The position numbers and the translations under genes were made by a program. From positions 17,883 through 81,882 of the forward strand of contig JAVDPD010000027.1 of NCBI GenBank assembly GCA_031296935.1: a DNA stretch of 64,000 nucleotides, read 5' to 3'. A model generated the notes under the pieces. It did not search any database. It saw nothing but the letters and a program-made list of their open reading frames with translations, and had not been told where the DNA came from. Origin of the DNA: Cerasicoccus maritimus. Its GTDB lineage: Bacteria > Verrucomicrobiota > Verrucomicrobiia > Opitutales > Cerasicoccaceae. How positions within the stretch are numbered: the first letter of the stretch is position 1; every line of letters starts with the position of its first letter. Of this stretch, positions 27,254 to 55,431 are shown in pieces.

Positions 27254-27895
27254 CTATGGCAAAGCCTGTTCGAATGACCCGAGATCGAAGCTCAGTGTGC
27301 TCGCGTCAAATTGTGGTTTTGTGGCCCGTGTTTCCTGGAATAATAGCTTGGCTTCCGCCCACTCGACTAGTGCATCGGCCAGTGCGAAGAGATTGCGCAC
27401 ATCCGCTGCCGCATAACTGAGCAGTTGTTCGAGGGCTTCCTGGTCATTGTGCAATTGATATTGCCGCCAGAGATGATGCGTTCTGCCGGTTGCGGAGGCG
27501 GCTTCATTTGGCCTGGCAATGCCCAGCACCCGTTCCAGTGTTTTTAGGCTGCCGTGTAGGCCGATGGCTTGCGCGAGTAACAGGAGGTCGAGGACCGGAG
27601 TGTTTACTGGGAGTGCTCCGGGCTGCTCGGCCTTGAGTTTGGGCAGGTCATGTTTGAGTCCGTTGTAGGTGAGTATCAGTGATGCGGTTCGCAGTTCGGT
27701 TGCAATGGACTTGCTGGGCAACGCGGGATGTTTGGCAAACTGCACGGTCTCGGCGGAACCATTGGGGTGCTGCTTGCAAAGCGAAAGAACGGAGATTGGT
27801 CCGTCGATGGACTCGGTCTCGATGTCGAGAGCGACCGCATGGTCTTTATGTTTTTTGTAGAGTTCGCAGTAATACCGCACCGATTGCCTCACCAT
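27254..27895 (-). CDS. YprB-like RNase H-fold 3'-5' exonuclease
   Basis: 213 residues from ATG 27895, chosen because a TATATAT box is centred 27 nt upstream; an earlier in-frame ATG at 27913 lies too close to it. DEDD-family motifs are present: ALDIETES (ExoI, DxE), LTYNGLKHDLPKL (ExoII, N...D), and YAAADVRNLFALADALV (ExoIII, D). This pattern matches the YprB/RNase_H_2 group of single-stranded nucleic-acid exonucleases. It stands in a minus-strand block with a winged-helix gene, a Bax1-like nuclease and an XPB helicase, which suggests DNA repair or defence. A similar promoter precedes the neighbouring gene. Confidence 0.75.
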   Translation of the reverse strand: MVRQSVRYYCELYKKHKDHAVALDIETESIDGPISVLSLCKQHPNGSAETVQFAKHPALPSKSIATELRTASLILTYNGLKHDLPKLKAEQPGALPVNTPVLDLLLLAQAIGLHGSLKTLERVLGIARPNEAASATGRTHHLWRQYQLHNDQEALEQLLSYAAADVRNLFALADALVEWAEAKLLFQETRATKPQFDASTLSFDLGSFEQALP

Positions 27896-27916
27896 GAGTG
27901 GGTATTTAGGCAAACT

Positions 27917-27951
27917 GGTATATATGGTTTTCGGCTGTAGGTGACCAGTGG
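27917..27951 (-). promoter_or_regulatory. Duplicated TATA-like promoter element, copy 1
   Basis: A 35-nt unit repeated at 28311-28345 with one mismatch. On the minus strand it reads from CCACTGG through CGAAAACCATATATACC. The TATATAT core is centred 27 nt upstream of the exonuclease ATG (27895). Either an archaeal BRE-plus-TATA arrangement with leaderless mRNA, or a sigma-type promoter with TGGTCA and TATATA 18 nt apart. Confidence 0.6.
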
Positions 27952-27996
27952 GAACAGGTTGAAGTTATTATTTCGGTGTCAGGTGCTGGCGTTAGC

Positions 27997-28290
27997 TTAG
28001 AACTTTGAAGCGAGTTTTCGAATTTGCTGAAGACCTGCGATCTGGTCATGCATCTTCAATGGTGTGGCGCGGTATGTCCCAGCAGGTTTCTGCGCAATCG
28101 CCTCTTTGGTCAGTAATGCATCCAATATCTGTTTTGTTTCGGCAACAGGCAACTGTGTTGCTTTGGCAATTGTCTCCGCGTTTATTCCTTCGGTGTCTCT
28201 ACAGGTTTCGAATACGTGGGCTTCATTCATGGTAAGTGCATACCGCACCATGCTGTCGATGACATGTTCCTGTTGATCTGTGTTGGCCAT
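27997..28290 (-). CDS. Winged-helix DNA-binding protein
   Basis: 97 residues. The helix-turn-helix core INAETIAKATQLPVAETKQI and LDALLTKEAIAQKPAGTYRA forms a winged helix of the ArsR/TrmB/MarR style. No sensing domain is present. The TATA-like promoter 28311-28345 is centred 26 nt upstream of the ATG. It sits between the exonuclease and Bax1-like genes and shares its promoter sequence with the former, so the two are probably expressed together. Confidence 0.7.
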   Translation of the reverse strand: MANTDQQEHVIDSMVRYALTMNEAHVFETCRDTEGINAETIAKATQLPVAETKQILDALLTKEAIAQKPAGTYRATPLKMHDQIAGLQQIRKLASKF

Positions 28291-28310
28291 AGCACCATAT
28301 CAGTGCCTCA

Positions 28311-28345
28311 GGTATATATGGTTTTCGGCTGTAGGTGGCCAGTGG
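28311..28345 (-). promoter_or_regulatory. Duplicated TATA-like promoter element, copy 2
   Basis: Near-identical to 27917-27951 (one A/G difference). TATATAT core at 28313-28319, 26 nt upstream of ATG 28290. No Shine-Dalgarno lies between it and the start, so translation from a short or absent leader is implied. Confidence 0.6.
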
Positions 28346-28352
28346 CCGTTAT

Positions 28353-29519
28353 CTAAGGTCTGGTCGATTGCAGTGCTTCCAAGACGGCCTTCAACTGAAT
28401 CGACTTACCATAGCAGATTACCGGAAGATCGCTGGGCGGCAATTTTCCCGCCATTGATTTGGGAACCGCGAGAATGATGGGAATGTTTTTGAAGGTTCGC
28501 AAGGTTTCGAGTTTTCGGTTCCAGTAGGATTCGGTCCAGAACCCGGCGATTTCAAAGAAGACTTCTTTGCCGGATTTATGGACGCACACGAAGTCGGGGA
28601 CGAAGACTTTTTGATCTTGATGGAGAATACGTTCCTCGCGCATAAGTTGCCAGCCATCCCGGGACTGGTCACCCCACTTTTCCGCGAAGCTGGCTTCGAT
28701 GCTCGAATCAAATTCCTCATCCGGTGTGATGGTGCTGCGCAATCGACAGTCGGAGGTCAGGGTAAAACGTGGGTTGAAGGCTGTGTTCTTGAGCTTGATC
28801 GCAGCGTTTAGCCGCCAGTCCTGACAGGCCAGGAGCGCGGGCAGAAATCGCGCCATTGCCGAGCCGTAGCGGCGGGTTTCGCGCAGCACCGATGCGGGGC
28901 CATCGAGGAGTATCCGGTAGCCGCTATCGGTTTTATCGATAGTGTGCATGAGCCGGGCCAGCTTTGCCTGACGGATGACCTGCTTGAGATCGCGCGTAAC
29001 ATAGAGCTCCAGTTCAATCGCATCAAAGAGCACGCCTTGGGTTTGGGCGACGTTGTAACGGGCTAAGAGGTCTTCTGGCGATGCGTACCCTTCGAAACTG
29101 CTGAGGCGCTGAAAATGCAGGACGTCGGAGAAGAGGTTATCTTCGATGTCCTCCCAGGGGAGCTTGAGTGTTTCGGCAATGGCCGTTTTTACTTCTTGCT
29201 GTGGTTTCCCAAAGATGCTTTCGGTGGACTCGTAGATGAGCGGGTGACTCTTGGCGGCTAGCGCATAGACTTTCTGGCGCAGCTTCGTCCACTTATTTCC
29301 CCGTTCATAAGTCGCGCCCTCATCCAGCAGTTTTTGAAAGGCCGCGACGCGTTTGGGAGGACAATTGTCAACGTCATCGAAAAGGGCATCGATTCGTCGG
29401 TGCAGTTCTTTACGCGAGAGCCCGATTCCGGTGCGGTAGACATTCAGCATACGCTCTGCCAGCGGTAGATACTGCTTATTCTTTGCGCGTGATCCAGTCC
29501 GGTCGAACCTGCGGGCCAT
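28353..29519 (-). CDS. Bax1-like nuclease (DUF790)
   Basis: 388 residues from ATG 29519. The sequence matches the DUF790/Bax1 style: an N-terminal helical region, then a C-terminal restriction-like nuclease domain with FEFDSSIEASFAEKWG-type text (EEFDSSIEASFAEKW), VFVPDFVCVHKSGKEVFFEI (PD...ExK-like core, D and ExA) and AGFWTESYWNRKLETL. In archaea Bax1 is the partner nuclease of the XPB helicase; together they open and cut damaged or stalled DNA. The gene directly overlaps the XPB 3' end by 1 nt (TGATG), exactly the archaeal gene pair. Here the pair lies on a bacterial mobile element. Family call by pattern. Confidence 0.75.
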   Translation of the reverse strand: MARRFDRTGSRAKNKQYLPLAERMLNVYRTGIGLSRKELHRRIDALFDDVDNCPPKRVAAFQKLLDEGATYERGNKWTKLRQKVYALAAKSHPLIYESTESIFGKPQQEVKTAIAETLKLPWEDIEDNLFSDVLHFQRLSSFEGYASPEDLLARYNVAQTQGVLFDAIELELYVTRDLKQVIRQAKLARLMHTIDKTDSGYRILLDGPASVLRETRRYGSAMARFLPALLACQDWRLNAAIKLKNTAFNPRFTLTSDCRLRSTITPDEEFDSSIEASFAEKWGDQSRDGWQLMREERILHQDQKVFVPDFVCVHKSGKEVFFEIAGFWTESYWNRKLETLRTFKNIPIILAVPKSMAGKLPPSDLPVICYGKSIQLKAVLEALQSTRP

Positions 29520-30876
29520 CAAAGTGGTAATAAACTTCCTTTTTGGTAAGCATCGGTTCTTCGGCGTTTGCGGGAGCGTTGCACTTCTCCGGTATTATCG
29601 CAGACGATTTCGTAGAGAATGGCCTGAGCGTTGCCGCTGGGTCGCAGGATTCGTCCCAGCCGCTGGATGGCCTGCCGGGTGGTGGATTTTCCGCCGAGCA
29701 CGATGGCGATCTTGGCGGTTGGCACATCAATGCCCTCATCGAGCACCTGATTGGCGATGATCGCCTTGAATTTCCCTTCACGGTAGCCTTCAAGAATGAA
29801 GGCGCGTTCGTCGCTGTGGCAGTGATCGAGCAGGCAGGGAATCAGAAACCGGGAGGAGAGTTCATAGGCCATCTGGTTGGAGCCGGTGTAGATGAGGGTT
29901 TGCGCATCGGCGTGCAGGCATAAGAGTTCTTCGAGTATCACGATTTTGTTCGCCGCCCGGTCCTCAATGGCGGTGCGGGCTCGCTTGGCTTTCAGCGCTT
30001 TGCGGGCGGCAAGCTCCGTGGCGCTCTCGGCATACGCATCCTTCCAAGCAAAGTTTGGATCGTTTTTCGTTTATCGGCGACGAACTGCTGGATGATTTGT
30101 CCGAGCCGTGTGTATTCGATTCGTTCAATTTCGTGAGTTCAACGGGGATGCGTTTGACGCGATGTTTCGCCAATGAATCCGTTGGAACCTGATCGAGTGG
30201 CAGCATATAGATGATTGGGCCGATTAAGGATTCACAGTCGGTGCTTTCCGCTGGGGTTGCCGTCAGTCCCAATCGATACGGGGCCGCCGACATTCGCGCC
30301 GAATCGCCCAGCACGGGTCCTGGCAGGTGGTGGCATTCATCAAAGATCAGACACTGGAACTGGTTGCCCAGTTTGGGCATATGAATGCACGCGCTTTTAT
30401 AGGTGGTGACCGTGAGTGGCTGGAGGTGGAAATGGGTATCGCCAATGACGCCAATTTTGCAGTCGAAAGCTTGCTGGAGCCGTTCTTTCCATTGATACAT
30501 GAGCGCTTTGAGCGGACAGACAATAAGAACCGAACACTGTAGTTCTGCGATGATGGAAAGCGCCACTTCGGTTTTGCCGGTGCCAGTGGGCATGACCACC
30601 ATGCCACGCTTGTTTTGGAGCCATGCGCTCTTGGCCTCTTGCTGGTAGTCTCGCAATGGTTTGAGGTGTAGAGTGGACAGAGACGTTGGGAGCCATGCCG
30701 GGATTGTGTCGATGAACGGGATCCGTGTACTTTGGAGCGTGTGGTAATGGATGGCATCGCAGACAACCGCTGCGGGGATCCTCGTTCCAGTTGGCCGCTG
30801 TGCACAAGTCGCTCTCCAGCTCGAGGGGAGCACAGAGCGTTCCCTGATCGAAATGCAGTGTGGGCGGCGTTGGCAT
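29519..30876 (-). pseudogene. XPB-like DNA helicase, frameshifted at three points
   Basis: The helicase is recoverable across three frame changes. The N-terminus MPTPPTLHFDQGTLCAPLEL begins at ATG 30876. At a C run (30774-30777) one extra base shifts into LRDYQQEAKSAW and Walker A MPTGTGKTEVAL; then FDECHHLPG (motif II) and GLTATP (motif III). Near 30126 one G seems missing, giving EYTRLGQIIQQFVADKRK, and at an A run (30063-30067) one A seems missing, giving FAWKDAYAESATELAARK. The C-terminal half (29941 down) has the RecA-2 motifs QVLDEGIDVPTAKIAIVLGG and RQAIQRLGRILRP. Restored length is about 452 residues, normal for archaeal-type XPB. The breaks are all at homopolymers or doublets, so they may be sequencing errors. 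Confidence 0.8.
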
Positions 30877-30927
30877 CCTTCCAGTGGAAGATACTGGCCC
30901 GCTGATGTCGATACTCCTGTGGCGCCC

Positions 30928-31113
30928 TTATCGGTTACTGAGCTGTTCTCTGATCTGGAGTGCCCGTCGCTCAATCATGGCGCCCAGTTCGCTCAAGGTG
31001 TCAGGATCGATGGTGATGATGTTGCTATCGCACTGACCAAAGGCGTTGAGCAGGGAGCCAAACGTGGCGATTTCGGCGGCTAGCGTGTCAATCTGCTGGT
31101 CGATCTCATCCAT
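30928..31113 (-). CDS. Small helical hypothetical protein upstream of XPB
   Basis: 61 residues from ATG 31113 (MDEIDQQIDTLAAEIATFGS); an in-frame ATG at 31134 is also open. Acidic, helical, ending in RRALQIREQLSNR. Same strand as XPB and Bax1, 51 nt upstream of the XPB start. No recognised family; possibly an accessory subunit or just a leader ORF. Confidence 0.4.
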   Translation of the reverse strand: MDEIDQQIDTLAAEIATFGSLLNAFGQCDSNIITIDPDTLSELGAMIERRALQIREQLSNR

Positions 31114-31354: not shown

Positions 31355-31399
31355 TTCAATGTACGATTAGGAAAGGGGCAGGGGACTTCCCGATGGCCG

Positions 31400-31534: not shown

Positions 31535-31560
31535 GTTGCATCGGTATATCGATGTAGCAG

Positions 31561-31590: not shown

Positions 31591-31854
31591 ATGAGCTGGT
31601 ATGAATTTAAGGAAATCCACTGCACGCACTCGGTCCTGCAGCGATTGAGCACTGAGGCTGCAACGTATTCTAGGTTGTTTAAACTAACGCAGGTATCCCA
31701 CACCACCCTGCAACGGGTGCTGTCGGATTTGATTATTGCAAAGGCTATTGTGAAAATCTCTGCGAAAGAAACCCGGCGATTGTATGAGATTACGGCCAAA
31801 GGCAAGAAGCTTGATATACATCTGGATGCTGCGATGCGATTGTCTAAGAAGTGA
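31591..31854 (+). CDS. Winged-helix DNA-binding protein (87 aa)
   Basis: 87 residues. The helices VLQRLSTEAATYSRLFKLTQ and VSHTTLQRVLSDLIIAKAIV, with wing VKISAKETRRLYEITAKGKK, form a MarR/archaeal-type winged helix; the wing ends in the standard YEITAKGKKL. No ligand domain. The TATA-like box 31561-31570 lies 25.5 nt upstream. Likely a regulator of neighbouring element genes. Confidence 0.65.
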   Translation: MSWYEFKEIHCTHSVLQRLSTEAATYSRLFKLTQVSHTTLQRVLSDLIIAKAIVKISAKETRRLYEITAKGKKLDIHLDAAMRLSKK

Positions 31855-32587: not shown

Positions 32588-32631
32588 GGTCCTTTTTGGG
32601 GCGAACCAAGGCGGGAAGCGTTGGAGTAGTC

Positions 32632-32811
32632 GAGCGCGAAAGCGCTCAAAGCTGCAAAAGGCGCTTCACTTGTTGAGTTTCAGCTAACCATTTGGAGCTT
32701 TGCCACGGATCGTGGACGCCCCGTCGTCTGTGTGTCGGTTGATGTCGTGACAGTTTTTACGGTTTCTTCCCTTGGATGGGTAAGGGGGCGAAACCAATCT
32801 GTTGTGATGGG
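32632..32811. repeat. 180-bp direct repeat, copy 1
   Basis: Nearly the same sequence appears at 33600-33779, roughly nine positions in ten alike by eye, offset 968. Contains a hairpin-capable stretch (GGTTTC/GAAACC enclosing CCCTT/AAGGG, about 32761-32795) and, on the minus strand, the last 18 codons (ending TAA 32759-32757) of a truncated copy of the gene at 33725. The repeats flank the PEP-CTERM gene 32881-33495. Confidence 0.75.
32757..32811 (-). pseudogene. Remnant of the 3' end of the gene at 33725
   Basis: Within repeat copy 1 the minus frame PSQQIGFAPLPIQGKKP* is nearly the same as the tail of the protein encoded at 33725-34093. No start or upstream part exists, so this is a left-over 3' fragment after a duplication or insertion. 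Confidence 0.5.
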
Positions 32812-32880
32812 AAGGATTCGTTTACATTATTATGACAGTCGCCGTCATTAAATTTATAGGCGACAGCTGAATCGTCGCCA

Positions 32881-33495: not shown

Positions 33496-33599
33496 CGAGT
33501 AAGTTCAATATAATAAAGAAGCTATAGATAGGTATAAGAATCAGTTTATTCAATTAGTATTTGCTTTGTTATCCTGCCGGTTTGGATTTTTCTCTAGTT

Positions 33600-33779
33600 G
33601 AGCGAGAAGGGGCTCAAAGCTGCAAAAGGCGCTTCACTCAAGTACGTTTCAGCTAACCATTTGGATTGTTGCCACTATCGTGGACGCCTCGTCGTCTGCG
33701 TATCGGTTGATGCCGTGACAGTTGTTACGGTTTCTTCCCTTGGATGAGTAAGGGGGCGAAACCGATCTGTTGTGATGGA
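33600..33779. repeat. 180-bp direct repeat, copy 2
   Basis: Copy of 32632-32811. Here the stop codon at 33725 ends an intact frame (33725-34093) whose C-terminal 18 codons lie inside the repeat. The repeats might result from insertion of the PEP-CTERM gene together with part of the target, or from a tandem duplication later decayed. Confidence 0.75.
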
Positions 33780-34093
33780 GGATGATGCGTAGAACTGGTT
33801 TTAAAGCCAACGCCAATTGACAGTGGTACGCCTGCCTTTTCGAACATTGCTCTAAATGCGTGGATGGACACGGTCTGATCGCCAATTGAGACTTGGGTTG
33901 GATCTATGCACCCGGCATAGCAATAGATTTGGTTGCTACCTCGACCCATTGCGGTGAGATACTTTTCAAGGTCGGCAAAGGTCGTAAATACGCCCTTAGG
34001 ATACTCGCGCCCATCATCGGCAATATACGAGACAAGCGCCGCTCGCTGAACTGTCTGGCTACCTGGAACCGGGTTCAGGTTGACGAACGTCAT
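33725..34093 (-). CDS. Hypothetical protein ending in the repeat
   Basis: 122 residues from ATG 34093 (an ATG two codons earlier at 34099 is also in frame). Contains VQRAALVSYIADDGREYPKG and VFTTFADLEKYLTAMGRGSN, then a Cys-bearing piece YCYAGCIDPTQVSIGDQTVS. No known family. Its last 18 residues are encoded in the 180-bp repeat. Low to moderate support. Confidence 0.45.
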   Translation of the reverse strand: MTFVNLNPVPGSQTVQRAALVSYIADDGREYPKGVFTTFADLEKYLTAMGRGSNQIYCYAGCIDPTQVSIGDQTVSIHAFRAMFEKAGVPLSIGVGFKTSSTHHPPSQQIGFAPLLIQGKKP

Positions 34094-34239: not shown

Positions 34240-34656
34240 CTAGTTTTCGGGCAGTTGCCAACCCAGTTCAGGCCATTTTTTGAAATCCCGGTCAAAGGAC
34301 ATGACTGCGTATCCTTTTTCGATCGCAAACCTCGCTTGGAAGGCGTCGAGGTAATCAACTGATTTGGTCTGGAGGTCATCCAACGCCGCAAGCGTTGCTT
34401 TGGCGTGTTCGAGGCGAATGCCAGGTCGCTGCAGAAATTCACTTAAGATTCTGGCGACGTGTTTGCGATCCTGCTCATAGTAGCTGGTCAGCACCCATAC
34501 GATTTCCGCAATGCAGCCGCTGGTGAAATACAGCAGGTAGTCGCCTGCCTCAGCTTTGGCAAATACTTCCTTGGCAATCGGCGAGAGTTTCTCGTGATCC
34601 CATTGCAATAGGCGAATCACGATATTGGCATCGCAGAGGAATACCGGTTTGCTCAT
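34240..34656 (-). CDS. vapC: VapC-type PIN-domain toxin
   Basis: 138 residues. PIN acidic residues appear in order: Asp9 (FLCDANIVIRLLQ), Glu in the middle (SGCIAEIVWVLTSYY), then Asp in SVDYLDAFQARFA and SFDRDFKKWPEL. PIN toxins are Mg-dependent RNases cutting tRNA or rRNA. The start overlaps the AbrB-like antitoxin stop by 4 nt. Together with 34653-34901 it forms a complete VapBC module that could stabilise the element. Confidence 0.88.
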   Translation of the reverse strand: MSKPVFLCDANIVIRLLQWDHEKLSPIAKEVFAKAEAGDYLLYFTSGCIAEIVWVLTSYYEQDRKHVARILSEFLQRPGIRLEHAKATLAALDDLQTKSVDYLDAFQARFAIEKGYAVMSFDRDFKKWPELGWQLPEN

Positions 34657-34901
34657 CGCTTCTTACCCTTAAGCGCGAGTGCTTTTGCGACAGCTTTTCG
34701 CTCCTGCGCCTTATTGGCGGCTGGACGCTTGCTTGGCAAAATCCCTGCAAAACGATCCAGGGAGCTATTCACTGATCGCATTATTACGTAGCCGTCCTTG
34801 GCTTCAAAAGCGATTTGCTGTTGCGGGTGCAAGTCGAGATACTCCCGTATTTCCTTGGGGATGGTTGTCTGCCCCTTACTGGTCATGGTTGAGATTGTCA
34901 T
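34653..34901 (-). CDS. vapB: VapB-type AbrB-fold antitoxin
   Basis: 82 residues. The N-terminus MTISTMTSKGQTTIPKEIRE, followed by YLDLHPQQQIAFEAKDGYVI, is the swapped-hairpin AbrB/VapB DNA-binding fold; the basic tail (PAANKAQERKAVAKALALKG) would bind the toxin. It precedes VapC as usual. A 9-bp inverted repeat TTTCCTTAC/GTAAGGAAA lies 32-60 nt upstream and may be the operator. Confidence 0.88.
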   Translation of the reverse strand: MTISTMTSKGQTTIPKEIREYLDLHPQQQIAFEAKDGYVIMRSVNSSLDRFAGILPSKRPAANKAQERKAVAKALALKGKKR

Positions 34902-36944: not shown

Positions 36945-37107
36945 GGTAATGATTTGCTGTTATCGAATGGCGTTATTGCGGTAGTACCATATGCATGCTC
37001 GATTAATTTCAGGCTTAGATGATTGTTCTTGGTGATGCTTTTGTTCGGTCAGCGGCTCCCAGTGATTTGGCGCAAGTGTTTTTACTTGGAAGTGGTCCTG
37101 CTTTTAC

Positions 37108-39608: not shown

Positions 39609-40172
39609 ATGAGAACGATTGAACACATTAAGCGTGAGCTGGAGCCTCGGGCCTTGCTCTCGGTCAGTAACGCGCATGACGATGCGCGGATTTCGTATCG
39701 CCTGGATTCCAACACGGTTCAGGATATGCACGAGTTTATCTCGGTCATTGGCGATTACCTGAATTATCACCATGAAACTTGCCTGGGAGGACGGTTGCCC
39801 GACTTTCAAGCGGAGGAAATGGCCAAGGAAATTGTCGAGCGTCACCACAAACGCAGTGGGGGCAACCTGCTCAGCGCTTACACGCAAGCCAATACCGGAC
39901 TCAATGGCGGAATGCGAAAAATTCTGGATGTGATTGCCGATGAGCTTCGCGAGGATGCGCTGCGACGCTACACCAATCATGTGCTGGATACGTATGTCAC
40001 GCCCAATGCCTGGCCGGAGAAGGTGGCGCTGATTCGTGAGCTGGTTGCTGTCCTGAAACTGGATGGCGCGGATACGGATCATCCCGAGCGATACGCCAGT
40101 GATTACAAGGCGCTGATTGAGACCTATCTGCGCAACCTTCGCCGCACCGAGGAAGCCTTCTTTCGGATGTAA
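39609..40172 (+). CDS. Hypothetical helical protein
   Basis: 187 residues, helical, with charged N-terminus (RTIEHIKRELEPRALLSVSN) and conserved-looking HHETCLGGRLPDFQAEEMAK and PNAWPEKVALIRELVAVLKL. No membrane segment. It is followed directly by the next gene (stop TAA then ATG). Its neighbour at 40173 resembles it in some parts (TCLGGRLPD versus YGGRLERD), hinting at a shared origin. Confidence 0.6.
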   Translation: MRTIEHIKRELEPRALLSVSNAHDDARISYRLDSNTVQDMHEFISVIGDYLNYHHETCLGGRLPDFQAEEMAKEIVERHHKRSGGNLLSAYTQANTGLNGGMRKILDVIADELREDALRRYTNHVLDTYVTPNAWPEKVALIRELVAVLKLDGADTDHPERYASDYKALIETYLRNLRRTEEAFFRM

Positions 40173-40799
40173 ATGAGGCCGGAGCTTGCACAGTTCCTGG
40201 AGGAGATTCTTCTCTGCCACCGCAAGTCGCAGGCGCTGATCAATGAGCGTTTCCTGGCGCTTGAGGGCAACGATTGGCGGGTGTGTTCTGAGGCTGAGTT
40301 TGTCGCGCTCCTACACCGGGTGACGGTTTATTTGTTGTATGGCGACTCGGTTAGCACTGATGGGCACACGCATGGCCTCAAGATTATCCAGGAACGATTG
40401 GAGAAAGTCTTTGGGGCAGCGCAGCGTCAGGTGGTGTTCGAAGCAATCGAAGGCCGGGGGCTGCGCAAGAGCGTCGAGCAATATGTCGATGCGGTTCAAC
40501 AGGAACTGGTGAGTGAACTGTTGTATGCGCTCATCGACAGTTACTTCGAGATCGCCTATGGCGGTCGATTGGAGCGTGATTATGACCTGATGCATCAGGA
40601 TGGCAGCGAGTACTTCGAGGAGCATCGCCTGCTTTTGCCATCTTCTATTTGGGAGCAGCGGGATACCTACATCAAGGGGTCCATGGTCGTTCAGCATCCC
40701 ATAACCGGTCAGGATGCTCTCAGGCCTCGTATGTGGGAAGTCTATGTTCGCCATCCCGAGTGGATGAACGCGCAACGCCAACCGCTGCTGTCACGATGA
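40173..40799 (+). CDS. Hypothetical protein in the VWA/Lon-like operon
   Basis: 208 residues starting immediately after the previous stop. Helix-rich: ELAQFLEEILLCHRKSQALI, KIIQERLEKVFGAAQRQVVF and VQQELVSELLYALIDSYFEI, followed by an acidic GGRLERDYDLMHQDGSEYFE. No catalytic motif or membrane helix seen. Overlaps the next start by 4 nt (ATGA), so it is co-translated. Role unknown. Confidence 0.6.
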   Translation: MRPELAQFLEEILLCHRKSQALINERFLALEGNDWRVCSEAEFVALLHRVTVYLLYGDSVSTDGHTHGLKIIQERLEKVFGAAQRQVVFEAIEGRGLRKSVEQYVDAVQQELVSELLYALIDSYFEIAYGGRLERDYDLMHQDGSEYFEEHRLLLPSSIWEQRDTYIKGSMVVQHPITGQDALRPRMWEVYVRHPEWMNAQRQPLLSR

Positions 40800-41864
40800 C
40801 GAAAGCCGTTCCCTTTCCCGGTCAATCTACTGTAGCAACAGACTATCCATCATTGCCGCTGTACACACTTCTGCGACTCATCGTGGATGATGCGAATCCC
40901 GAGGCGTTAGCGGAATTACACAACCGTCGCACGGTTTTTCAGCAGGAGGCCGGGCAACGGATGCTGTTCACGCAGTATCTGCACTCGCTACGGTCATGGG
41001 CCTTGTCACGCGGCTGGAGTCATGCCATTGTCGAGGGCGCGGCTGATCTGTGTCAGGAACGATTCTCCCGGTTGCCTGCCGATGGCCAGGGTGTGGATTG
41101 TCGCAATTATTTTCGGGCTGTCCTGATTCACTTCACCGGCAATGACGCTGCCTCCATTGGGCGTGAATACGAACTGGCTCGTCTGCTTGAGCGGATGGTC
41201 TTCCGGCATTTTTCGCTTTGCCTCAAGGAGGTGAAACGTTCGTTGCATTCCAGCCGCTATGTTTGGCGAATGGACTCTGGAACGCTCACACTGCGCTTTC
41301 CCCGGCATATTTCCGGGCGGGCTCGCCTTGCCTGGTTGGAAGAACATGCGCCAGATGCCGATGCCGCTCGTGTCGGGGAGCGGGATCGTATTCAGGCCCT
41401 GGTTGATGCGCATTTTGGATCGGGAGAGCCGGTGAGCTTGGATGATGGAGTAGGGCAGTTAGTGCTACCTCAGAGCGACATCCCCTCAAACATTGTGCAG
41501 CGGCTGGAATCACAGGGCTTGGCGCAGGCGGTGGCGGAAGAAAAAGCTGACCGAATCGATGAGCAACGAAGCGCCATTGCCGCTCTGGGGCCGTTGGCGG
41601 TGAGAGAGATGGTGCTGCGCATTTTTGAGGAGATCGCCGCTGGTGAGGTCAATGACCACCAGATTGCACAGGAGTACGGGATCACGAAACCAACGTATTC
41701 GAGGTGGGCAGGCTCTTCCTGGGAAATCAGGCGCACGGCAGGTTCCTGATCTGTGGCGCAACACCGCCCAAGTGCTGGCGCAACATGCCGCCTTTCGTGA
41801 GACAGCGGTTGCAGCCTCGGTATGGCCGGTCGTTGAATCCATCAATGAGGGAGGCCGGTCATGA
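40796..41864 (+). pseudogene. Sigma-factor-like regulator, frameshifted near 41721
   Basis: Coding starts at ATG 40796 (overlapping the previous stop). The N-terminal part LFTQYLHSLRSWALSRGWSH, CRNYFRAVLIHF is helical and recalls sigma-70 region 2; the C-terminus has HTH EVNDHQIAQEYGITKPTYSR. The frame ends at 41749 as WEIRRTAGS. Dropping one G in the GGGAAA at 41721-41726 continues into GARQVPDLWRNTAQVLAQHA and ends at 41864, exactly 4 nt into the next gene. ATG coupling and the HTH-to-PDLWRNT join make the restored form convincing. Possibly a dedicated sigma factor for the element promoters, which is inference. Confidence 0.6.
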
Positions 41865-42337
41865 GCGGAGAACTCGCATACATCGCCCGTCTGCAACAAG
41901 CCTACCGAAATGGCGCGAGTCGGGAGGAACTGGCCGCTGCGTTTGCCGCGATCAAGGATCTGGATCCCGAATCGCAGAGGCAGTTTGCTGACTTTATGGA
42001 AGTGGTTGCCGCTTCTGCTGAGTGTTCTGCGGCGCTGTCGGTAAACGATAACGAGGTTGCAAAGATCGATCTGCATGCTCGGGATGCGGCAATTGATCTG
42101 ACCGAACCCGGTCACTACACGCTCACGCTGTCAACTGGACGGGTTATCTGGAAGCAGCATCTTGACGCGAAAGAGTTATTTTTGGTGGACCATGACACGC
42201 TTCCGGTGGCTGCGGATACGGACGATGCCCAAGATCGGGTTTCGTTTGAAACCACACTCCTTGATGGCGAAATCATCCTTTCGCTGACTCCTGGCCTACA
42301 CCAGGGAACCCTTCGCATCCAATGGCAAGCCGGGTAA
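41861..42337 (+). CDS. Hypothetical protein (158 aa)
   Basis: 158 residues. An N-terminal helical part (AYIARLQQAYRNGASREELA, QRQFADFMEVVAASAECSAA) is followed by a beta-rich C-terminal part (GHYTLTLSTGRVIWKQHLDA, EIILSLTPGLHQGTLRIQWQ). The helical half resembles an anti-sigma or zf-HC2-like N-terminus, and the position directly behind the sigma-like gene supports an anti-sigma role, but the Cys/His pattern is missing. Overlaps the next gene by 16 nt. Confidence 0.55.
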   Translation: MSGELAYIARLQQAYRNGASREELAAAFAAIKDLDPESQRQFADFMEVVAASAECSAALSVNDNEVAKIDLHARDAAIDLTEPGHYTLTLSTGRVIWKQHLDAKELFLVDHDTLPVAADTDDAQDRVSFETTLLDGEIILSLTPGLHQGTLRIQWQAG

Positions 42338-43911
42338 ACGCAGTTCTGGTTGCCGGTGATGGTACTGCGCTGGTCACTGAAATCATTGCCAAGGTCGTCT
42401 CGAAACATCGTTCCCGAATAACCTTCACTGGTCCTGGCGTATTCGATCACCGAATAAAGAGGCATATTCGGGCAACTGTCCTGCCGCTCATTGATTCAAT
42501 TCTCACTGAACTGGATGTATCGCTTCCATGCTTTGAGCTATCGGTGGTCAATCCAGCTGTTGCTTCAAGCATGGAGGCAGCCGTTAGAGTGTCAGGGTTT
42601 TCTGTGGACGTTCCGATTGCCTTGGCCTTACTTGGTGCAGCCTGTGGCATGCCAGTTAAATCGAGTGTGGTTGCAACCGGACACATCGCTTCATCGGCGG
42701 GCGATATTCGGATGGTGCGCAGCCTTGATCAGAAGGTGCAGGCGGTGGTTACTCGTGGGAAAGGGATGTGTTTTGTGTATCCGCAATTCGATGCCTCGAG
42801 TGATCTGCCATCCGGTGATGAGCGTGAACGGATCGATTTAGCGTTTCGCAAAATTCGATTCCGGGTGCGGTTGCAACCGATTTCTCAGTTTTCACAAGCT
42901 CTTACGTTGGCCTTTGCCGAACACGATCTGTTTCTTGCCTCGTTGACCTGCGGGTATTACGGACGAGAATCTGCGGACTCGACGGTCATTCGCGACCTTG
43001 GGCTTGGCGAGGGAAATCGGTTCATCCGGGTGCTCGAGCAACATTTACGTGATACTGACATGGTCCGCATTCAGGAGGTGCTTGGGGCGTGGATTCGGTT
43101 TCTCGTCAAGAACGGGCAGTATCCTCATGGCGTCGGTCGAGAGTTGCATGCGCTGTTACAATCCATACCACCAGCAGTCAGGCGCCTCAAACTGCGGTTT
43201 CCGTTGATTGCCTCCAGTGAGGTCATGCGACTGGCGCCATTAGTTGGAAGCGAGGATACGGCGGACTTTCAGCAACTGCTGCGGGCAATTGAGGGGAATA
43301 TTGCGGTTGTCTCGGTAGTCACTCACGGTGTCGAAGATTTCTCTGATTCATGCGATGCCGCCGAGATAATCTTGGATGCGATTCTGTCTGAATTGGATGA
43401 GGCGGCCATTTACGAGCAATTGTGCGCTCCAATGGATCGAGCCTTCAACCTGTTCCAGATTCCAATTGAAGGGAGCTTTCATGATCTGGTTTTCTCCTTT
43501 TATGCCGCACTGATGCGAGCTGTCGATGGATGCCTTGAATCGGATAATTTGGCATCAGATGCGTATGCGCTCGTGGAACGAGCCTATGCTCGAAACGGTG
43601 GAATCAAGGGGGCAACCACTGATGCCGAAACTCCGGGTGGCCGACGAGTAATCCTTGAGCGGATGTTGCAAACCTTGCGAAAAGAGCGTGTGGAGAGCCA
43701 TATCCAATACGTCTTTCACCAAGCCATTGATCCACTCGATTATGCTGCCAAACTCGCGGTGACCAAGGCGTTCATCGTTCGGTTCCGCTCAGTGTTGCCT
43801 GAGCAGGTCGTCGACGATCCACCCGAGAAATATGCCCAGTCATGGTATGTGTTGATCCGTCATTGGCTGGAGATGCGGACGGAATTTCAGGAGTGGATTC
43901 ATATGAGGTAA
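42322..43911 (+). CDS. Lon-like (S16-fold) protease-domain protein
   Basis: 529 residues. The N-terminal 150 residues resemble the Lon/ComM ribosomal-S5-like fold: PCFELSVVNPAVASSMEAAV, then SGFSVDVPIALALLGAACG with Ser94 at the catalytic site and SSAGDIRMVRSLDQKVQAVV with Lys138 as catalytic partner. The classic Lon motif PSAG is replaced by FSVD, so activity is uncertain. The other 380 residues are helical and unique, and there is no AAA+ motor. It ends a five- or six-gene unit with the VWA, Cys-rich, sigma-like and other proteins. Perhaps a regulated protease acting on a sigma/anti-sigma pair. Confidence 0.6.
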   Translation: MASRVNAVLVAGDGTALVTEIIAKVVSKHRSRITFTGPGVFDHRIKRHIRATVLPLIDSILTELDVSLPCFELSVVNPAVASSMEAAVRVSGFSVDVPIALALLGAACGMPVKSSVVATGHIASSAGDIRMVRSLDQKVQAVVTRGKGMCFVYPQFDASSDLPSGDERERIDLAFRKIRFRVRLQPISQFSQALTLAFAEHDLFLASLTCGYYGRESADSTVIRDLGLGEGNRFIRVLEQHLRDTDMVRIQEVLGAWIRFLVKNGQYPHGVGRELHALLQSIPPAVRRLKLRFPLIASSEVMRLAPLVGSEDTADFQQLLRAIEGNIAVVSVVTHGVEDFSDSCDAAEIILDAILSELDEAAIYEQLCAPMDRAFNLFQIPIEGSFHDLVFSFYAALMRAVDGCLESDNLASDAYALVERAYARNGGIKGATTDAETPGGRRVILERMLQTLRKERVESHIQYVFHQAIDPLDYAAKLAVTKAFIVRFRSVLPEQVVDDPPEKYAQSWYVLIRHWLEMRTEFQEWIHMR

Positions 43912-48734: not shown

Positions 48735-49286
48735 ATGAAGCACGCGAGGGAAATTCTGGATGACATCTTCGGGCAACTGGATCCAGCAGTCCTGCGCAGG
48801 TATATTGACGAGCCACTGCGGGATGCCATTGCGGCGCTCGACCTCGAGGTGGAGTCCACGTACACGGGCTTCACGAAACTGCTAATAAGGATTATTCGAG
48901 TTTTTGTTCCATCGGTTGATGATGCTTCAGCCTTGGCCCAAGCCCGTGTATGGCTCAATGAGAAGCCCGGTGGGTTTGATCTCGCACTGCTGGAATTTCT
49001 GGAGGGCGGCTCCATTGTGATGGAGAGCATTACTCAGCGATTGCTCGTCTGCGCCATCGCACAGAAGCGGAAGCGATATGAACGCAGTGTGTTCGCCATT
49101 CACCTTGCGCCGTTGAACTGGCAAGAGCGACTCGACCTTGTCCGGGAATGCAAACGTCGATTTGATCTGCCTGGTGATCTCGCGGGGCGTCCTGACTGGT
49201 GTTTGGTTGAGTCAGTGGAGGAGCTGATTGCGGTCTGTTGCGTTTTTCCAATCCCGACATTGAGGAATTCCATTTTCTTCGGATAA
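48735..49286 (+). CDS. Hypothetical protein, possibly frameshifted near 49235
   Basis: 183 residues from ATG 48735 (MKHAREILDDIFGQLDPAVL). The frame ends with VESVEELIAVCCVFPIPTLR. In the next frame the text reads LRFSNPDIEEFHFLRINGQL and NFNIQEVD and stops at 49408, which looks more protein-like and suggests one missing base near 49230-49237. No SD. Mostly helical with acidic segments. Function unknown. Confidence 0.5.
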   Translation: MKHAREILDDIFGQLDPAVLRRYIDEPLRDAIAALDLEVESTYTGFTKLLIRIIRVFVPSVDDASALAQARVWLNEKPGGFDLALLEFLEGGSIVMESITQRLLVCAIAQKRKRYERSVFAIHLAPLNWQERLDLVRECKRRFDLPGDLAGRPDWCLVESVEELIAVCCVFPIPTLRNSIFFG

Positions 49287-50022: not shown

Positions 50023-50463
50023 ATGGGTTCAAGAATTGGATATAGAGTAAAATGCAATACAGATAGATCGCAGATCTTGCGAAAACAATGGATGTCGAGC
50101 ATCCAGACACTGGTGGTTGATATGTGGAATGCGCTTGGCGGCAAGCCTGACAATGGCGCTCAGGCAATCCGTGGTGATTTAGGGTTTGATCGTGCATTCG
50201 CCGCGATGGTTGGGGTTGGCTACCATGCTCCCTTTAACTCGATTGAGAAAGATACGAGGTGTGACATTTCAGATAATGGCCTGATCGAAGTCGACATCAG
50301 TCAATTCGATACTTGGAAAATCTACCACATTGAGATCGGATGGTTGGGTGATGATGATGGTAAAGAGGGCATGCGAACCTTGATTGGTGAGATGTCGATT
50401 GATGGGTTTTCGTGGGAAATTTCAGAGCGTGAACTCGATAACTTAGGCGAAGGGCTGTTTTAG
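50023..50463 (+). CDS. Hypothetical protein (146 aa)
   Basis: 146 residues. The middle GVGYHAPFNSIEKDTRCDIS, NGLIEVDISQFDTWKIYHIE is beta-rich. The N-terminus is basic (GSRIGYRVKCNTDRSQILRK). It has no membrane segment and no known family. Stands alone between two AT-richer gaps. Confidence 0.5.
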   Translation: MGSRIGYRVKCNTDRSQILRKQWMSSIQTLVVDMWNALGGKPDNGAQAIRGDLGFDRAFAAMVGVGYHAPFNSIEKDTRCDISDNGLIEVDISQFDTWKIYHIEIGWLGDDDGKEGMRTLIGEMSIDGFSWEISERELDNLGEGLF

Positions 50464-51224: not shown

Positions 51225-52722
51225 TGACATTATCCCGGTCGCGATCTATACGCGCAAATCCACCGATGCCCATATCGAACGCGAGGTACACTCCTTGTCG
51301 GTCCAGCAGGCATCCGCTGAAAGTTTCATTGAGTCACAGAAGCATCGCGGCTGGCGCTGTCTCGAAGAGCATTTTGACGACAACAATGTCTCCGGTGGCA
51401 CGCTGGAGCGTCCGGCGCTTAACCGCCTCATGGAGCGTATTCGGGAGGGCAAGGTCAAGGTGGTGGTCATCAATCGTCTCGACCGCATCTCGCGCAGTCT
51501 GGTGCAGTTTCTCGAACTCACAGAGTTTTTCGAAACACATGGCGCCTCCATCGTCAGCGTCACTCAGAATTTCAATACGGGCGATTCCATTGGCAAGTTG
51601 CTCCTGCACATTTTGATTTCTTTTGCGGAATTCGAGCGGGCGCTTATTCGCGAGCGGGTGACCGAGCGCATGCACGCCGCGCGTCGTCAGGGGCGTTTCG
51701 TGGGTGGGCGTCCGGTCCTGGGGTATTCGATCAAGCCCGGAGGCGGCGAACTCATAGTCGACGATCTGGAAGCGGTTCGCGTGTGCGATATGTTTGCGTT
51801 GTATCTGGAACTCGCCTCCCTGAAAGCGACGGTGCGCGAGTGCAAGCAGCGGGGCTGGAAGAATAAGAAGTGGGTGACCCGTCAGGGCAAGGTGATGGGC
51901 GGCAATGATTTTTCTGTTAATGGGCTGCACAAGCTGCTGACCAACCGTCTGTATTTGGGGGAGATTGCGTTTCAGGGCGAAGTGTTTCCCGGCAAGCATG
52001 AAGCGATTGTGGACTCAGAACTCTTTGATGCGGTGCAGGCGCAGCTTGCCTCAACTTCCTTGACCGAGGAAAGCCGCAAGCGTAACCGGCATGCCGCTTC
52101 GCTCAAAGGGCTGCTCCATTGCACCGCGTGTCATGCGCCCTTCGTGCATACCTATACCCAGAAGCAAGGGCGTCAATATCGCTATTATACCTGCCGTCAT
52201 AAGCGTGATGAGGGACCGCACGCCTGTCCGTCTCCCTCGCTACCCGCTGGCGAAATCGAGTCACTGGTCGCTCAGCAACTCTTGGCGGTTGGATGTGATG
52301 CGGAGCTCCAGGATCTCGTGTATCAGCAACTCACCGAAGCCGCCCAGCAGGATCAAGAAAAGCGCCAGAAGCAGGAGAAGGCTGCTCGTCAGCAGCTTCG
52401 CCGGATCCGTGAGGAACTTAAGCAGTCGGAGGAATTGGAGGCGCCCTTGCCGATGGTGCGGCATCTTCAGGCGCAGGAACGCGAAATCGTGGCGCTGCTG
52501 CAAAGCTTCGATGAACCCGAACCGCTGCCGTCCAAGGAAACCATCGTCGCCATGCTCCGTGATCTGCAGTCCCTCTGGCCATCCTTCAACGCTCAGGAGC
52601 GGTGCGATTTTACGCAGGCCCTGATTCGTCAGGTCGAATTTGACGCGGAAGGTGGCAAGGTGACCTTGCACTTTAGCGATGCCGGACTGGTCCGGGGACT
52701 GGAAATGGAGGCCGCGTCATGA
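51211..52722 (+). CDS. Large serine recombinase (resolvase/integrase)
   Basis: 503 residues. The catalytic domain starts VAIYTRKSTDAHIEREVHSL with Ser17 and continues through VVVINRLDRISRSLVQFLEL and SFAEFERALIRERVTERMHA. The recombinase domain contains LTNRLYLGEIAFQGEVFPGK, then a zinc ribbon (LHCTACHAPFVHTYTQ and YYTCRHKRDEGPHAC) and a coiled coil (about 375-430). This is the family that integrates mobile elements. It belongs to the DUF2924/recombinase/HTH trio and may mark an element nested inside the larger one. The start ATG 51211 follows GGAGG. Confidence 0.9.
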   Translation: MNAANDIIPVAIYTRKSTDAHIEREVHSLSVQQASAESFIESQKHRGWRCLEEHFDDNNVSGGTLERPALNRLMERIREGKVKVVVINRLDRISRSLVQFLELTEFFETHGASIVSVTQNFNTGDSIGKLLLHILISFAEFERALIRERVTERMHAARRQGRFVGGRPVLGYSIKPGGGELIVDDLEAVRVCDMFALYLELASLKATVRECKQRGWKNKKWVTRQGKVMGGNDFSVNGLHKLLTNRLYLGEIAFQGEVFPGKHEAIVDSELFDAVQAQLASTSLTEESRKRNRHAASLKGLLHCTACHAPFVHTYTQKQGRQYRYYTCRHKRDEGPHACPSPSLPAGEIESLVAQQLLAVGCDAELQDLVYQQLTEAAQQDQEKRQKQEKAARQQLRRIREELKQSEELEAPLPMVRHLQAQEREIVALLQSFDEPEPLPSKETIVAMLRDLQSLWPSFNAQERCDFTQALIRQVEFDAEGGKVTLHFSDAGLVRGLEMEAAS

Positions 52723-53120
52723 GCTCAGTAACCTTGGATATTCATCTGGCTCTGGGACGCTGCGGGCATCAGCGCATTCGCCCGGGAAAAAAGCCCAAAT
52801 CCGCGAAACCGACTCGCCTGCCTCGAGTCACGAGGCTGATGGCGCTGGCCATCAAGTATGGCGATATGCTGGATCAGGGAGTCGTCAGTAATCAGGAGGG
52901 GCTTGCACGGCTGGCGGGCGTGGATCGCAGTCATGTCTCGAGAATCCTGCGGCTGCGACTGCTGTCTCCCGAGATCCAGGAATGGCTCCTCAACTTGCCT
53001 GAAACCACTGAAAGCAGGGATCCTGTGACATGGGAGCAGCTGGATGAGTTGATTCGGATGCCATCGTGGCAGTCGCAACGCGAATCGCTTCAGCAGTTGG
53101 GAGTCGTTCTGCACCAGTAA
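52719..53120 (+). CDS. HTH protein of the recombinase trio (ParB/KorB-like)
   Basis: 133 residues. The core GVVSNQEGLARLAGVDRSHV followed by SRILRLRLLSPEIQEWLLNL is a ParB/KorB-type HTH. The N-terminus is basic (RPGKKPKSAKPTRLPRVTRL). It overlaps the recombinase stop by 4 nt. Such genes always follow DUF2924 and the recombinase in these modules. Possible regulator. Confidence 0.75.
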   Translation: MSSVTLDIHLALGRCGHQRIRPGKKPKSAKPTRLPRVTRLMALAIKYGDMLDQGVVSNQEGLARLAGVDRSHVSRILRLRLLSPEIQEWLLNLPETTESRDPVTWEQLDELIRMPSWQSQRESLQQLGVVLHQ

Positions 53121-53132
53121 TTAGCCGCCAAA

Positions 53133-53140
53133 CTTATAAG
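53133..53140 (+). promoter_or_regulatory. TATA-like box before 53165
   Basis: GCCGCCAAACTTATAAGGC at 53126-53144 with the palindromic CTTATAAG centre 28.5 nt before the ATG. The CAAAC stretch just before it resembles a purine-rich BRE. Same spacing as other SD-less genes of the element. Confidence 0.5.
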
Positions 53141-53164
53141 GCGCCCTCGGGCGATTCACATGCT

Positions 53165-53668
53165 ATGGAAAATGCTATTGAACAACGGATCAAGCGACTG
53201 CGTCGGCAAAGTCTTACCGAGGAGATGGCGAACCGGCCCGATGAGTTTGGCTGGTGGATTGTAGCCCAATACGGGGAAGAGCTTTTGTTTCGCAATGATC
53301 CATCGCTCTTTGCCGATGCGGCGAAGTATGTGGAACAACTGGCCAGCTACCTGAACTGGGACTATCATGGTGTGCTGCATCAAGTGCGGGAAAATTACCT
53401 GCTGTATCTACAGGTCCGGGCGGATCGGATTGGCTCCGAGGAGCGGGACTCAACGCAAGGGCAGTTCATCGGCTATGCCATCGGCGCCCGTGGGTATGCG
53501 AGCAAGGTGGTGGAGGCGCTGGATGATCATCTCGGGCTGGAGCCTGAGGGCATAAAAGCGCAAGACCTCCGGGTCGTGAGTAAGTTGTATGACCGGTTGC
53601 ATGAAATCCATGAATTGATTGAGCCCTATGGTTACGGCCTTGAGCGAAGCGAGTTACCTTCGACGTAG
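53165..53668 (+). CDS. Hypothetical protein, paralog of 60059
   Basis: 167 residues from ATG 53165. CTTATAAG is centred 28.5 nt upstream and there is no SD. The sequence EFGWWIVAQYGEELLFRNDP and QGQFIGYAIGARGYASKVVE matches the protein at 60059 (ESEWWMAAHYARSQMADQTP and REQFFAYVNRAGYKAGKVNA). Helical with Trp and Tyr positions conserved. Function unknown; present twice in the element, so probably of use to it. Confidence 0.6.
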   Translation: MENAIEQRIKRLRRQSLTEEMANRPDEFGWWIVAQYGEELLFRNDPSLFADAAKYVEQLASYLNWDYHGVLHQVRENYLLYLQVRADRIGSEERDSTQGQFIGYAIGARGYASKVVEALDDHLGLEPEGIKAQDLRVVSKLYDRLHEIHELIEPYGYGLERSELPST

Positions 53669-53759
53669 ACTGAATGTCGTCATCGGATTTTTTTGGAGCC
53701 CTGGCTGCTCCCACTGATCGGCCGCAAAACTGATAATAATCCCATCGTCATGCCTTGGT

Positions 53760-54173
53760 ATGGCGAATCCATTAGAAAAGATACTTGTTTACTTGCCCAA
53801 CAGTTACCCCATCGCATCGGAATCATTCTGGGCTGCGGCTTTGGGCAATGAGCTGTACCGTTTGGAGAACGTGCCGTTCTTTGCTTACGGACTCAATTTC
53901 AAGGATGTTGTGCTGGCGACGCCCAATCGTGGCGACCCGCGGCCCGAAATCAGGAAAGTGGTCACTCCGAGTGGACACAAGACATGCCGGGTCTTATTTT
54001 CTGACGCTACTTCACGCTCGAAGCAGTCGGAGCTTCTTGACCAATTGGCGCCATGGGGCGGATTGTTCGAACGGGCTAATGACAGCTATGTCGCAATCGA
54101 TATCCAGCCGGATGGGGATTATGCGGCCATTTACAGCCAGCTCGAAAGGTATGCGGTGCAACAATACCTCTAA
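53760..54173 (+). CDS. DUF4265-like protein
   Basis: 137 residues. NPLEKILVYLPNSYPIASES, FWAAALGNELYRLENVPFFA, YGLNFKDVVLATPNRGDPRP and VVTPSGHKTCRVLFSDATSR match the DUF4265 pattern (PF14085 by memory), a small family of unknown function often near toxin or immunity-type genes. A GATAATAA box lies 24.5 nt before the ATG (GCCGCAAAACTGATAATAA). Possibly a defence or immunity component. Confidence 0.7.
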   Translation: MANPLEKILVYLPNSYPIASESFWAAALGNELYRLENVPFFAYGLNFKDVVLATPNRGDPRPEIRKVVTPSGHKTCRVLFSDATSRSKQSELLDQLAPWGGLFERANDSYVAIDIQPDGDYAAIYSQLERYAVQQYL

Positions 54174-54299
54174 TTCGAGACGTGCGAGGCCAGAGCCGAG
54201 GGGCGTTTCGATGATTATCCGGGAAGCATCGATGGCCTGAATTAGTGCGGGAAATTGCACTGGTCAGTTTGTATTCTTATGATATGAAATTTGACTCCT

Positions 54300-54950
54300 A
54301 TGGCAAATGGAGCTGAGGCATCGCCATGTGGGCTTTTCCCGCATGACCTGGTTATTTTTCGTGAGCATTTCCTGGCAATCGAGTCCGACTTCGTGCGCAC
54401 ACTCCCATTTGTTGAGGTCTGTGATGCCAACAATGGGACATACTCGCTCGAATATATGAAGATCCTATTGGCGGCTGGAGCAGAGGTGGACATCCTGACG
54501 CGATATCTGGCCAAGCATTTGGACCCTGATCCTGAAAAGGAGTATCGGCGCCTGGATAAAAAAGGAGAAGTTATCCTGAAGAACTTCCCCAATATCGGGA
54601 TGTGCCATGTGTTGCCTGCGAATAAGATGCGCGTTAAGGCCAGCCAAATAGTCATTGCGCCTTGGTCTGATTGGGATGGAAATGAGGATGGCGAACTTGA
54701 TTGTCAGCCCCCACGTTGGTGGACCGCATATAACGACGTAAAACACGATCGCGGAAATAGTTTCAGTAGCGCCACGCTATGGAATGCCATGTCAGCAATG
54801 GCTGCTTGGCTAGTTGTGTTACTTTACCTTGAGCGAATCATTACTCAAGATGTGGTAATGTTTGACACACAGTTCTTCAGGATGAACGGAATGAATTCTC
54901 GACGAATTATGGCGCGTCCCCAAGAGTTTCTCCCCGATTTTAGGATATAA
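54300..54950 (+). CDS. HEPN-like hypothetical protein
   Basis: 216 residues from ATG 54300. The C-terminal half WWTAYNDVKHDRGNSFSSAT, LWNAMSAMAAWLVVLLYLER is the RiboL-PSP-HEPN or HEPN-like motif (WxxYNxVKHxR with a following hydrophobic helix). HEPN domains are often RNases of defence or toxin systems. No neighbouring antitoxin-like (MNT) gene is present. Family call by pattern only. Confidence 0.55.
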   Translation: MANGAEASPCGLFPHDLVIFREHFLAIESDFVRTLPFVEVCDANNGTYSLEYMKILLAAGAEVDILTRYLAKHLDPDPEKEYRRLDKKGEVILKNFPNIGMCHVLPANKMRVKASQIVIAPWSDWDGNEDGELDCQPPRWWTAYNDVKHDRGNSFSSATLWNAMSAMAAWLVVLLYLERIITQDVVMFDTQFFRMNGMNSRRIMARPQEFLPDFRI

Positions 54951-55081
54951 CTGTCAGTGTCATTACATAGATTGTTTTCGGCCTGCTAGCAAGAGAGTCT
55001 CAGCGTAAGCGTTTTTTTGGGGCTTGGAATTATGTAGTGTGCTGCCACTAGGGTTTGCGGTTATGCTGCGAAGCCGGAAGG

Positions 55082-55089
55082 TATATAAA
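55082..55089 (+). promoter_or_regulatory. TATA-like box before 55114
   Basis: TATATAAA centred 28.5 nt before ATG 55114, preceded by GCCGGAAGG. A partial AGGA is about 10 nt before the start. Same geometry as 27922, 28316, 31565, 53136 and 53735. Confidence 0.5.
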
Positions 55090-55113
55090 GCTTAGTTACT
55101 TTCTAGGATAACT

Positions 55114-55431
55114 ATGGCATACAGATTATCCCATGAGCAGCTTGTGGATTTGGTGCGTGACATCTTGCGATACCGGCGGGTGACCGTTGGGTATCGGCAG
55201 AAGCTCAAATTGCTGATGGGGCAGGTGCCTGATCCAGCGACAGCGATGCTGCTTATCATGCGATGCCGTGAACAGCGGGAACGCGAGGCTTTGCTGCGTC
55301 AGATGAATCCAGCCCAGCGAATACGGGCGATGGAACAGAACGACTTAAAAGTAGTAGACTCGATGATGGCTCCGATTAGTCCAGAGATGATTGTTGAGGA
55401 GTCGATGCATCCCCGGACGTCCATTCCATGA
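55114..55431 (+). CDS. Small hypothetical protein (105 aa)
   Basis: 105 residues, basic and helical: SHEQLVDLVRDILRYRRVTV, YRQKLKLLMGQVPDPATAML, REREALLRQMNPAQRIRAME. No known motif. Its start lies under a clear TATA-like box, and a terminator-like hairpin follows its stop. Function unknown. Confidence 0.55.
   Translation: MAYRLSHEQLVDLVRDILRYRRVTVGYRQKLKLLMGQVPDPATAMLLIMRCREQREREALLRQMNPAQRIRAMEQNDLKVVDSMMAPISPEMIVEESMHPRTSIP

Follow-up and report, generated by a model that had tools for sequence, protein, structure and literature searches.

Gene content of the window

The window, the whole stretch of 64,000 nucleotides analysed here (positions 17883-81882 of contig C27), belongs to a bacterial assembly (G000) of 4.8 Mb in 66 contigs that is 97.6% complete. 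Its middle part is a mobile element encoding a tyrosine integrase, HerA-like and VirD4-like ATPases, a DnaG-like primase, a replication-relaxation protein and a serine recombinase (Table 1), and PEP-CTERM-like tails are encoded in the host stretches. An integrase profile search across 387 genomes of the phylum identified seven with a relative, including the window's own and G056. Scans of the genome_contigs and viral_contigs collections gave no relatives. An island consisting of the methyltransferase, HerA, the gene at 23186 and the integrase is common to all six element copies that bear the motif described below. These copies lie in five genomes (the window's own, G056, G430 with two copies, G511 and G530), the last three of which represent a single genus. 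A search for an attachment site found no 14-base repeat of the tRNA-Pro region in the window or in L004.

An XPB-like helicase, spread over two open reading frames (ORFs) in different frames (29519-30974, minus strand), adjoins a Bax1-like gene (DUF790) and an RNase-H-like gene. A direct repeat of about 190 bp (87.5%) lies on both sides of a PEP-CTERM gene (32627-32817 and 33595-33783). Upstream of a PIN-domain gene (34240-34901, minus strand) there is a small gene that resembles its antitoxin by eye, and the start at 34901 has a promoter-like TTGAAA-N15-TATAAA at about -27.

Table 1. Positions in the window of the genes, motif copies and repeats discussed in the text
Feature	Position	Strand	Remarks
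Motif copy	17842..17871	+	61 nt upstream of ATG 17906
DNA methyltransferase and HerA-like ATPase	20837..23010	-	belong to the shared island
Weak motif copy	23134..23163	+	3.8 bits; 49 nt upstream of ATG 23186, gene of the candidate regulator
Winged-helix-like protein	23186..23758	+	190 aa; adjoins the integrase; proposed reader of the motif
Degenerate motif copy	24050..24074	+	upstream of integrase 24103; TTTAAA at -34; outside the 27 sites
Tyrosine integrase	24103..25374	+	C-terminal cysteine pairs
Motif copy	25390..25419	+	52 nt upstream of ATG 25445
35-bp repeat	27917..27951	-	contains GCCGAAAACCATATATACC; upstream of ATG 27895
35-bp repeat, second copy	28311..28345	-	upstream of ATG 28290
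Motif copy	37056..37085	+	49 nt upstream of ATG 37108 (DUF6900 gene, followed by the DnaG-like primase)
Sigma-like gene	40796..41749	+	named in the sequence-only reading
Motif copy	53111..53140	+	51 nt upstream of ATG 53165; 3' end is the box CTTATAAG of that reading
Motif copy	53708..53737	+	49 nt upstream of ATG 53760 (DUF4265); 3' end is its box GATAATAA
Motif copy	60007..60036	+	49 nt upstream of ATG 60059; 3' end is its box TTTATCAA

TATA-like boxes upstream of element genes

An earlier, sequence-only reading of this DNA had reported TATA-like boxes at a fixed distance from eight start codons with little or no Shine-Dalgarno sequence, and had proposed archaeal-like promoters or a special sigma factor. 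All eight boxes are present in the sequence, those at 27895 and 28290 reading ATATATA on the coding strand. Their clustering was borne out by a comparison with shuffled upstream regions: 13 of 42 hand-chosen element genes have a box starting at -33 to -25 (shuffle mean 2.3, sd 1.4), and none of 300 shuffles reached 13. When the related element of G056 was included (one of its starts was listed 3 nt off), 17 of 67 starts had a box, versus 3.0 in shuffles; among host genes, 17 of 335 did. Both the box word list and the gene list contain the sites of the earlier reading, and with its eight sites excluded a box remained at -33 to -25 in 9 of 59 starts, compared with 2, 0, 3, 5 and 1 when the box was sought in five other distance ranges as wide as this one. 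Enrichment and the motif scores relative to the host thus support an element-specific box at a fixed distance that differs from the host pattern.

Other parts of that description held only in part. The sites at 27895 and 28290 are not independent, since they share a 35-bp direct repeat (97% identical). The CAAAAC-like tract exists, but at 53165, 53760 and 60059 it belongs to a longer motif that extends to about -52, and the starts at 31591 and 55114, counted among those with little or no Shine-Dalgarno sequence, carry AGG-type remnants of one. Searched genome-wide with up to two mismatches, the short motif originally described had 47 matches, versus 44 for a reversed control. The TATA-like boxes are real, and several of them form the end of a 30-base control sequence belonging to a mobile-element family: three of the eight (53165, 53760 and 60059) are the 3' end of this motif, two (27895 and 28290) belong to the 35-bp repeat, and the other three (31591, 32291 and 55114) fall in neither class. 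Despite different surroundings, TATATACCAG also lies at -29 upstream of the G056 orthologue of 27895; this may therefore be a second conserved promoter type.

A conserved motif of about 30 nt

By comparing orthologous upstream regions between the window and G056 we found a motif whose consensus over 27 sites is TTCCCAC(C/T)GATTnGnnGCMAAnnATTTAAA. The 27 copies come from five genomes and lie 48 (1 site), 49 (15), 50 (3), 51 (2), 52 (2), 57 (1), 60 (1) or 61 nt (2) from the start codon, so that 15 are at exactly 49 nt. Seven of them, scoring 3.8 to 10.8 bits, were included because their orthologues carry the site. Left out were the degenerate site of the window's integrase, a variant at 50334 in G056, minus-strand matches at 14064 in the window and at 39723 (21.5 bits, 30 nt upstream of a GTG) and 42951 (15.8 bits, with no ORF) in G056, matches at 6032 (minus) and 21890 in G430_C80, 28520 (minus) in G511 and 5230 in G594_C242, and weaker matches of 9-15 bits. 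One uncharacterised protein family of about 170 aa has the motif upstream of its genes at 53165 and 60059 in the window and at 48759 and 49613 in G056, the last of which, a 63-aa ORF, was placed in the family by eye; a structure model of this family (pLDDT 45) was set aside.

In a leave-one-out test, 10 of 11 sites scored above every position on both strands of 1.2 Mb of host sequence, and one host position equalled or exceeded the eleventh; the highest score upstream of the 335 host genes was 8.2 bits. Contigs of G430, G511 and G530, 115 kb in total, yielded seven matches above 15 bits to a matrix based solely on 12 sites taken from G000 and G056, where about 0.3 would be expected at the host rate. 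All seven are in G430 and G511 and lie 49-61 nt upstream of an ORF of at least 45 aa (one ORF being of 50 aa), and the G530 contig (7.9 kb) had no match above 15 bits. The motif therefore stands at like distances in a genus that belongs to another family. Neither G251 (80 kb) nor G594 (three contigs, 51 kb) had a match above 15 bits; variant sites at 50 nt were spotted by eye in G251. Among orthologues, the motif is present in all four found for 25445 (49-52 nt) and in all four of 17906 whose upstream region is available (57-61 nt), and for the integrase it can be recognised in five of six (9-18 bits).

The exact pattern occurs five times in G000, always on the window's contig. Across 322 genomes of the order, the exact long pattern had 22 matches in 16 genomes, versus 4 in the reversed control; seven of these are in the elements of the window and G056. 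The 15 elsewhere, five of which have the start codon of a frame of 40 or more aa (43-78 aa) 46-59 nt downstream, are presumed, though not proven, to be due to chance. A scan anchored on 2582 ORF starts gave 11 scores above 15 bits at 46-55 nt, while seven shifted offsets gave 1-4. Ten of the 11, however, are the training sites of the matrix, so the scan cannot count as independent evidence. We also considered the motif as an RNA element and rejected this: of eight leaders folded, seven had z values from -0.25 to 0.74 and one of -2.05.

If the boxes were ordinary, unrelated sigma-70 promoters standing at similar distances by chance, those outside the motif would fit well, as in the cases of TTGAAA-N15-TATAAA at 34901 and TGGTCA-N17-TATATA at 27895, and the boxes at 31591, 32291, 34901 and 55114 may indeed be such promoters. 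Chance leaves the 27 copies of the long motif at 48-61 nt unexplained, however, and is contradicted for the motif class; as a general account we regard it as very improbable.

Bacterial or archaeal promoters

We compared the element with 335 host genes that have free upstream space, out of 907 identified by an in-house gene caller on contigs C2-C8 and C12 (1.2 Mb). These genes show no Shine-Dalgarno peak but a sharp TTG[AC] peak at -40 to -31, with a -35-like TTG[AC]C at about -36, and in 41 genes an A/T excess where a -10 element would put the transcription start near the start codon. Many host messages thus seem to be short-leadered or leaderless and made from a bacterial sigma-70 promoter, and the lack of Shine-Dalgarno sequences, once taken as a mark of the element, is not special to it. 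An excerpt of a published study (PMC10783764) counts Akkermansia and one other Verrucomicrobia genome among those scarce in Shine-Dalgarno sequences, in line with this host pattern provided that the host belongs to that phylum.

Integrase genes are different in this respect. All ten related integrase genes (one of which, G594_C289, has an ambiguous start codon) have a TTTA-type box at -34 to -27 followed by a GAGG or GGAG word upstream of the start, whereas a Shine-Dalgarno word was found in only 4 of 22 other motif genes, in one case at -6 and in another at -20. Such a word between box and start would serve no purpose in a message that begins at the start codon, which speaks against leaderless messages and suggests that the transcript should start upstream, with the box acting like a bacterial -10. 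The 27-site alignment puts about 18 bp between TTCCCA and TTTAAA, where sigma-70-type promoters have 16-18 bp between their hexamers; TTCCCA itself differs from the host -35, TTG[AC]C.

The proposal of archaeal-type promoters, with BRE and TATA elements read by TBP and TFB on genes acquired from archaea and giving leaderless mRNAs, has some points in its favour. Archaeal geometry is matched by AA at -33/-32 and T-W-T-N-A at -28 to -24 in ten starts whose motif, or a variant of it, stands at 49 nt; XPB-like and Bax1-like genes are present in the window; and in the plasmid collection the integrase (7 of 7 matches) and the RNase-H-like protein (4 of 4) matched only records that we take to be haloarchaeal, at no more than 34% identity. 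A separate point, which counts against a bacterial model, is the narrow distance of 49 nt: it would be unusual for an mRNA that has a leader but no Shine-Dalgarno sequence, and is expected of a leaderless one. Yet the similarity of these proteins to archaeal ones is remote, the ten integrases carry their Shine-Dalgarno words between box and start, and searches for TBP and TFB gave no match in G000 and were positive in four archaeal control genomes. Archaeal machinery is thus highly unlikely in our judgement, and the motif is probably used by ordinary bacterial RNA polymerase together with a DNA-binding protein encoded by the element.

The candidate reader of the motif

The gene at 40796 had been put forward as a sigma factor that might read the boxes. 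G000 contains 19 sigma-70-type matches, 10 of them above the cut-off. The 40796 protein matches the sigma70-ECF family weakly (E 3.9e-5, 23.3 bits, below the cut-off of 42.9), and in two of three family members both domains align weakly and in order with a host sigma-factor profile. In the window, the C-terminal part found in G056 and G594 is missing in frame, the frame seemingly being broken at 41700-41750. These matches, and a spacing of the end boxes that suits a sigma factor, are consistent with the idea that the motif serves as -35 and -10 for a sigma factor encoded by the element, be it 40796 or another protein. On the other hand, comparison with host sigma factors by hhalign gave only 11%, the G056 and G594 members had no NCBIfam family match, a PDB sequence search with 40796 gave nothing useful, and the structure model of the family (pLDDT 49) was set aside. 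Among 387 genomes of the phylum, three (G000, G056 and G594) have a relative of 40796, with none reported for the motif-bearing G430, G511 and G530, whose inclusion in the 387 is inferred, whereas G594 has a relative but no motif excess (7 matches with one mismatch versus 6 in the reversed control). Conserved bases also fill the spacer. A sigma factor of the element appears improbable, and the case for 40796 is weakened. The gene order of 40796-43911 is kept in G594:C160 (L146), from another family, where the sigma-like gene was matched by search and a 160-aa protein and a Lon-like protein by eye.

The gene at 23186 is a better candidate. It lies in the shared island, its product is winged-helix-like, and the motif stands 49 nt upstream of the gene itself in all six copies (window, G056, two in G430, G511 and G530); for these reasons we propose it as the reader. 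These own-gene sites are weak in two copies (3.8 bits in the window and 8.0 in G056), and the -10 part of these promoters is poor. Four of five members of the 23186 alignment have a weak PadR match (best E 3.9e-4); the window's protein is the member that does not, its best Pfam match being Replic_Relax (E 0.015), and a match to the MarR-like chain 3f3x has E 0.016. The gene is present in every motif-bearing copy and has diverged in G251 (37%) and G594 (28%), both of which are without a match above 15 bits. Given this neighbourhood, own-gene motif and co-occurrence, 23186 is most likely the reader of the motif.

The site might instead be read by another protein, such as the methyltransferase or the conserved, uncharacterised product of 17906. 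The methyltransferase also occurs in all six motif-bearing copies, and 17906, itself a motif-bearing gene, occurs in five (it is not seen on the G530 contig); neither had a match in the G251 and G594 contigs examined. It is 23186, however, that looks like a DNA-binding protein and has the motif at its own gene in six of six copies, and another reader is rather unlikely.

A proposed regulon of the mobile element

From the motif, its narrow distance, its conservation, the gene set and the Shine-Dalgarno words between box and start, we infer, as the most probable account, that the element has its own regulon with a composite bacterial promoter, used by host polymerase and with 23186 as the likely operator-binding factor. 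In each member promoter, a -35-like TTCCCA would be separated by about 18 bp from a -10-like TTTAAA, which we take to be the "TATA box", and the spacer would be filled by a conserved operator, roughly CYGATTnGnnGCMAA. Host RNA polymerase would then start about 16 nt upstream of the start codon; integrase leaders would use that space for a Shine-Dalgarno-like word, and most others would lack one, as host genes do. The 23186 protein most likely binds the operator, controlling its own gene too, and its effect could be activation or repression. Because the integrase and the gene preceding the DnaG-like primase belong to this group, the switch would probably be between quiet integration and excision or replication. 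A more specific version, that this winged-helix protein replaces -35 recognition in a dedicated switch, with a promoter class occurring only in this element family and starts spaced for a host that lacks Shine-Dalgarno sites, is possible but clearly the less likely form.

The motif marks genes that would be switched together by a little-studied element family and names a candidate regulator that can be tested in vitro. It also illustrates that, in a host without Shine-Dalgarno sites, a TATA-like box may be misleading. Among the literature matches listed, there was no description of the motif or of the regulator family.

Several known systems resemble this arrangement. In archaeal BRE/TATA promoters an A-rich tract precedes an AT-rich box that lies about 27 nt upstream of the start codon, and the geometry of tract and box is alike; the element differs in that no TBP or TFB was found, in its extra conserved upstream block and in the Shine-Dalgarno words of its integrase leaders. 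In the middle promoters of phage T4, the MotA box is an activator site that replaces the normal -35 close to the -10. The element would be similar in having an activator site in the place of the -35 near a -10, but its conserved site fills the whole spacer. Promoters of the MerR and phage-repressor type also have the regulator site between -35 and -10, although the site of the element is not palindromic and its candidate reader is winged-helix-like. Finally, some integrative and conjugative elements have regulons whose regulator adjoins the integrase, and the element described here would be like them in grouping its own regulator, integrase and primase operon.
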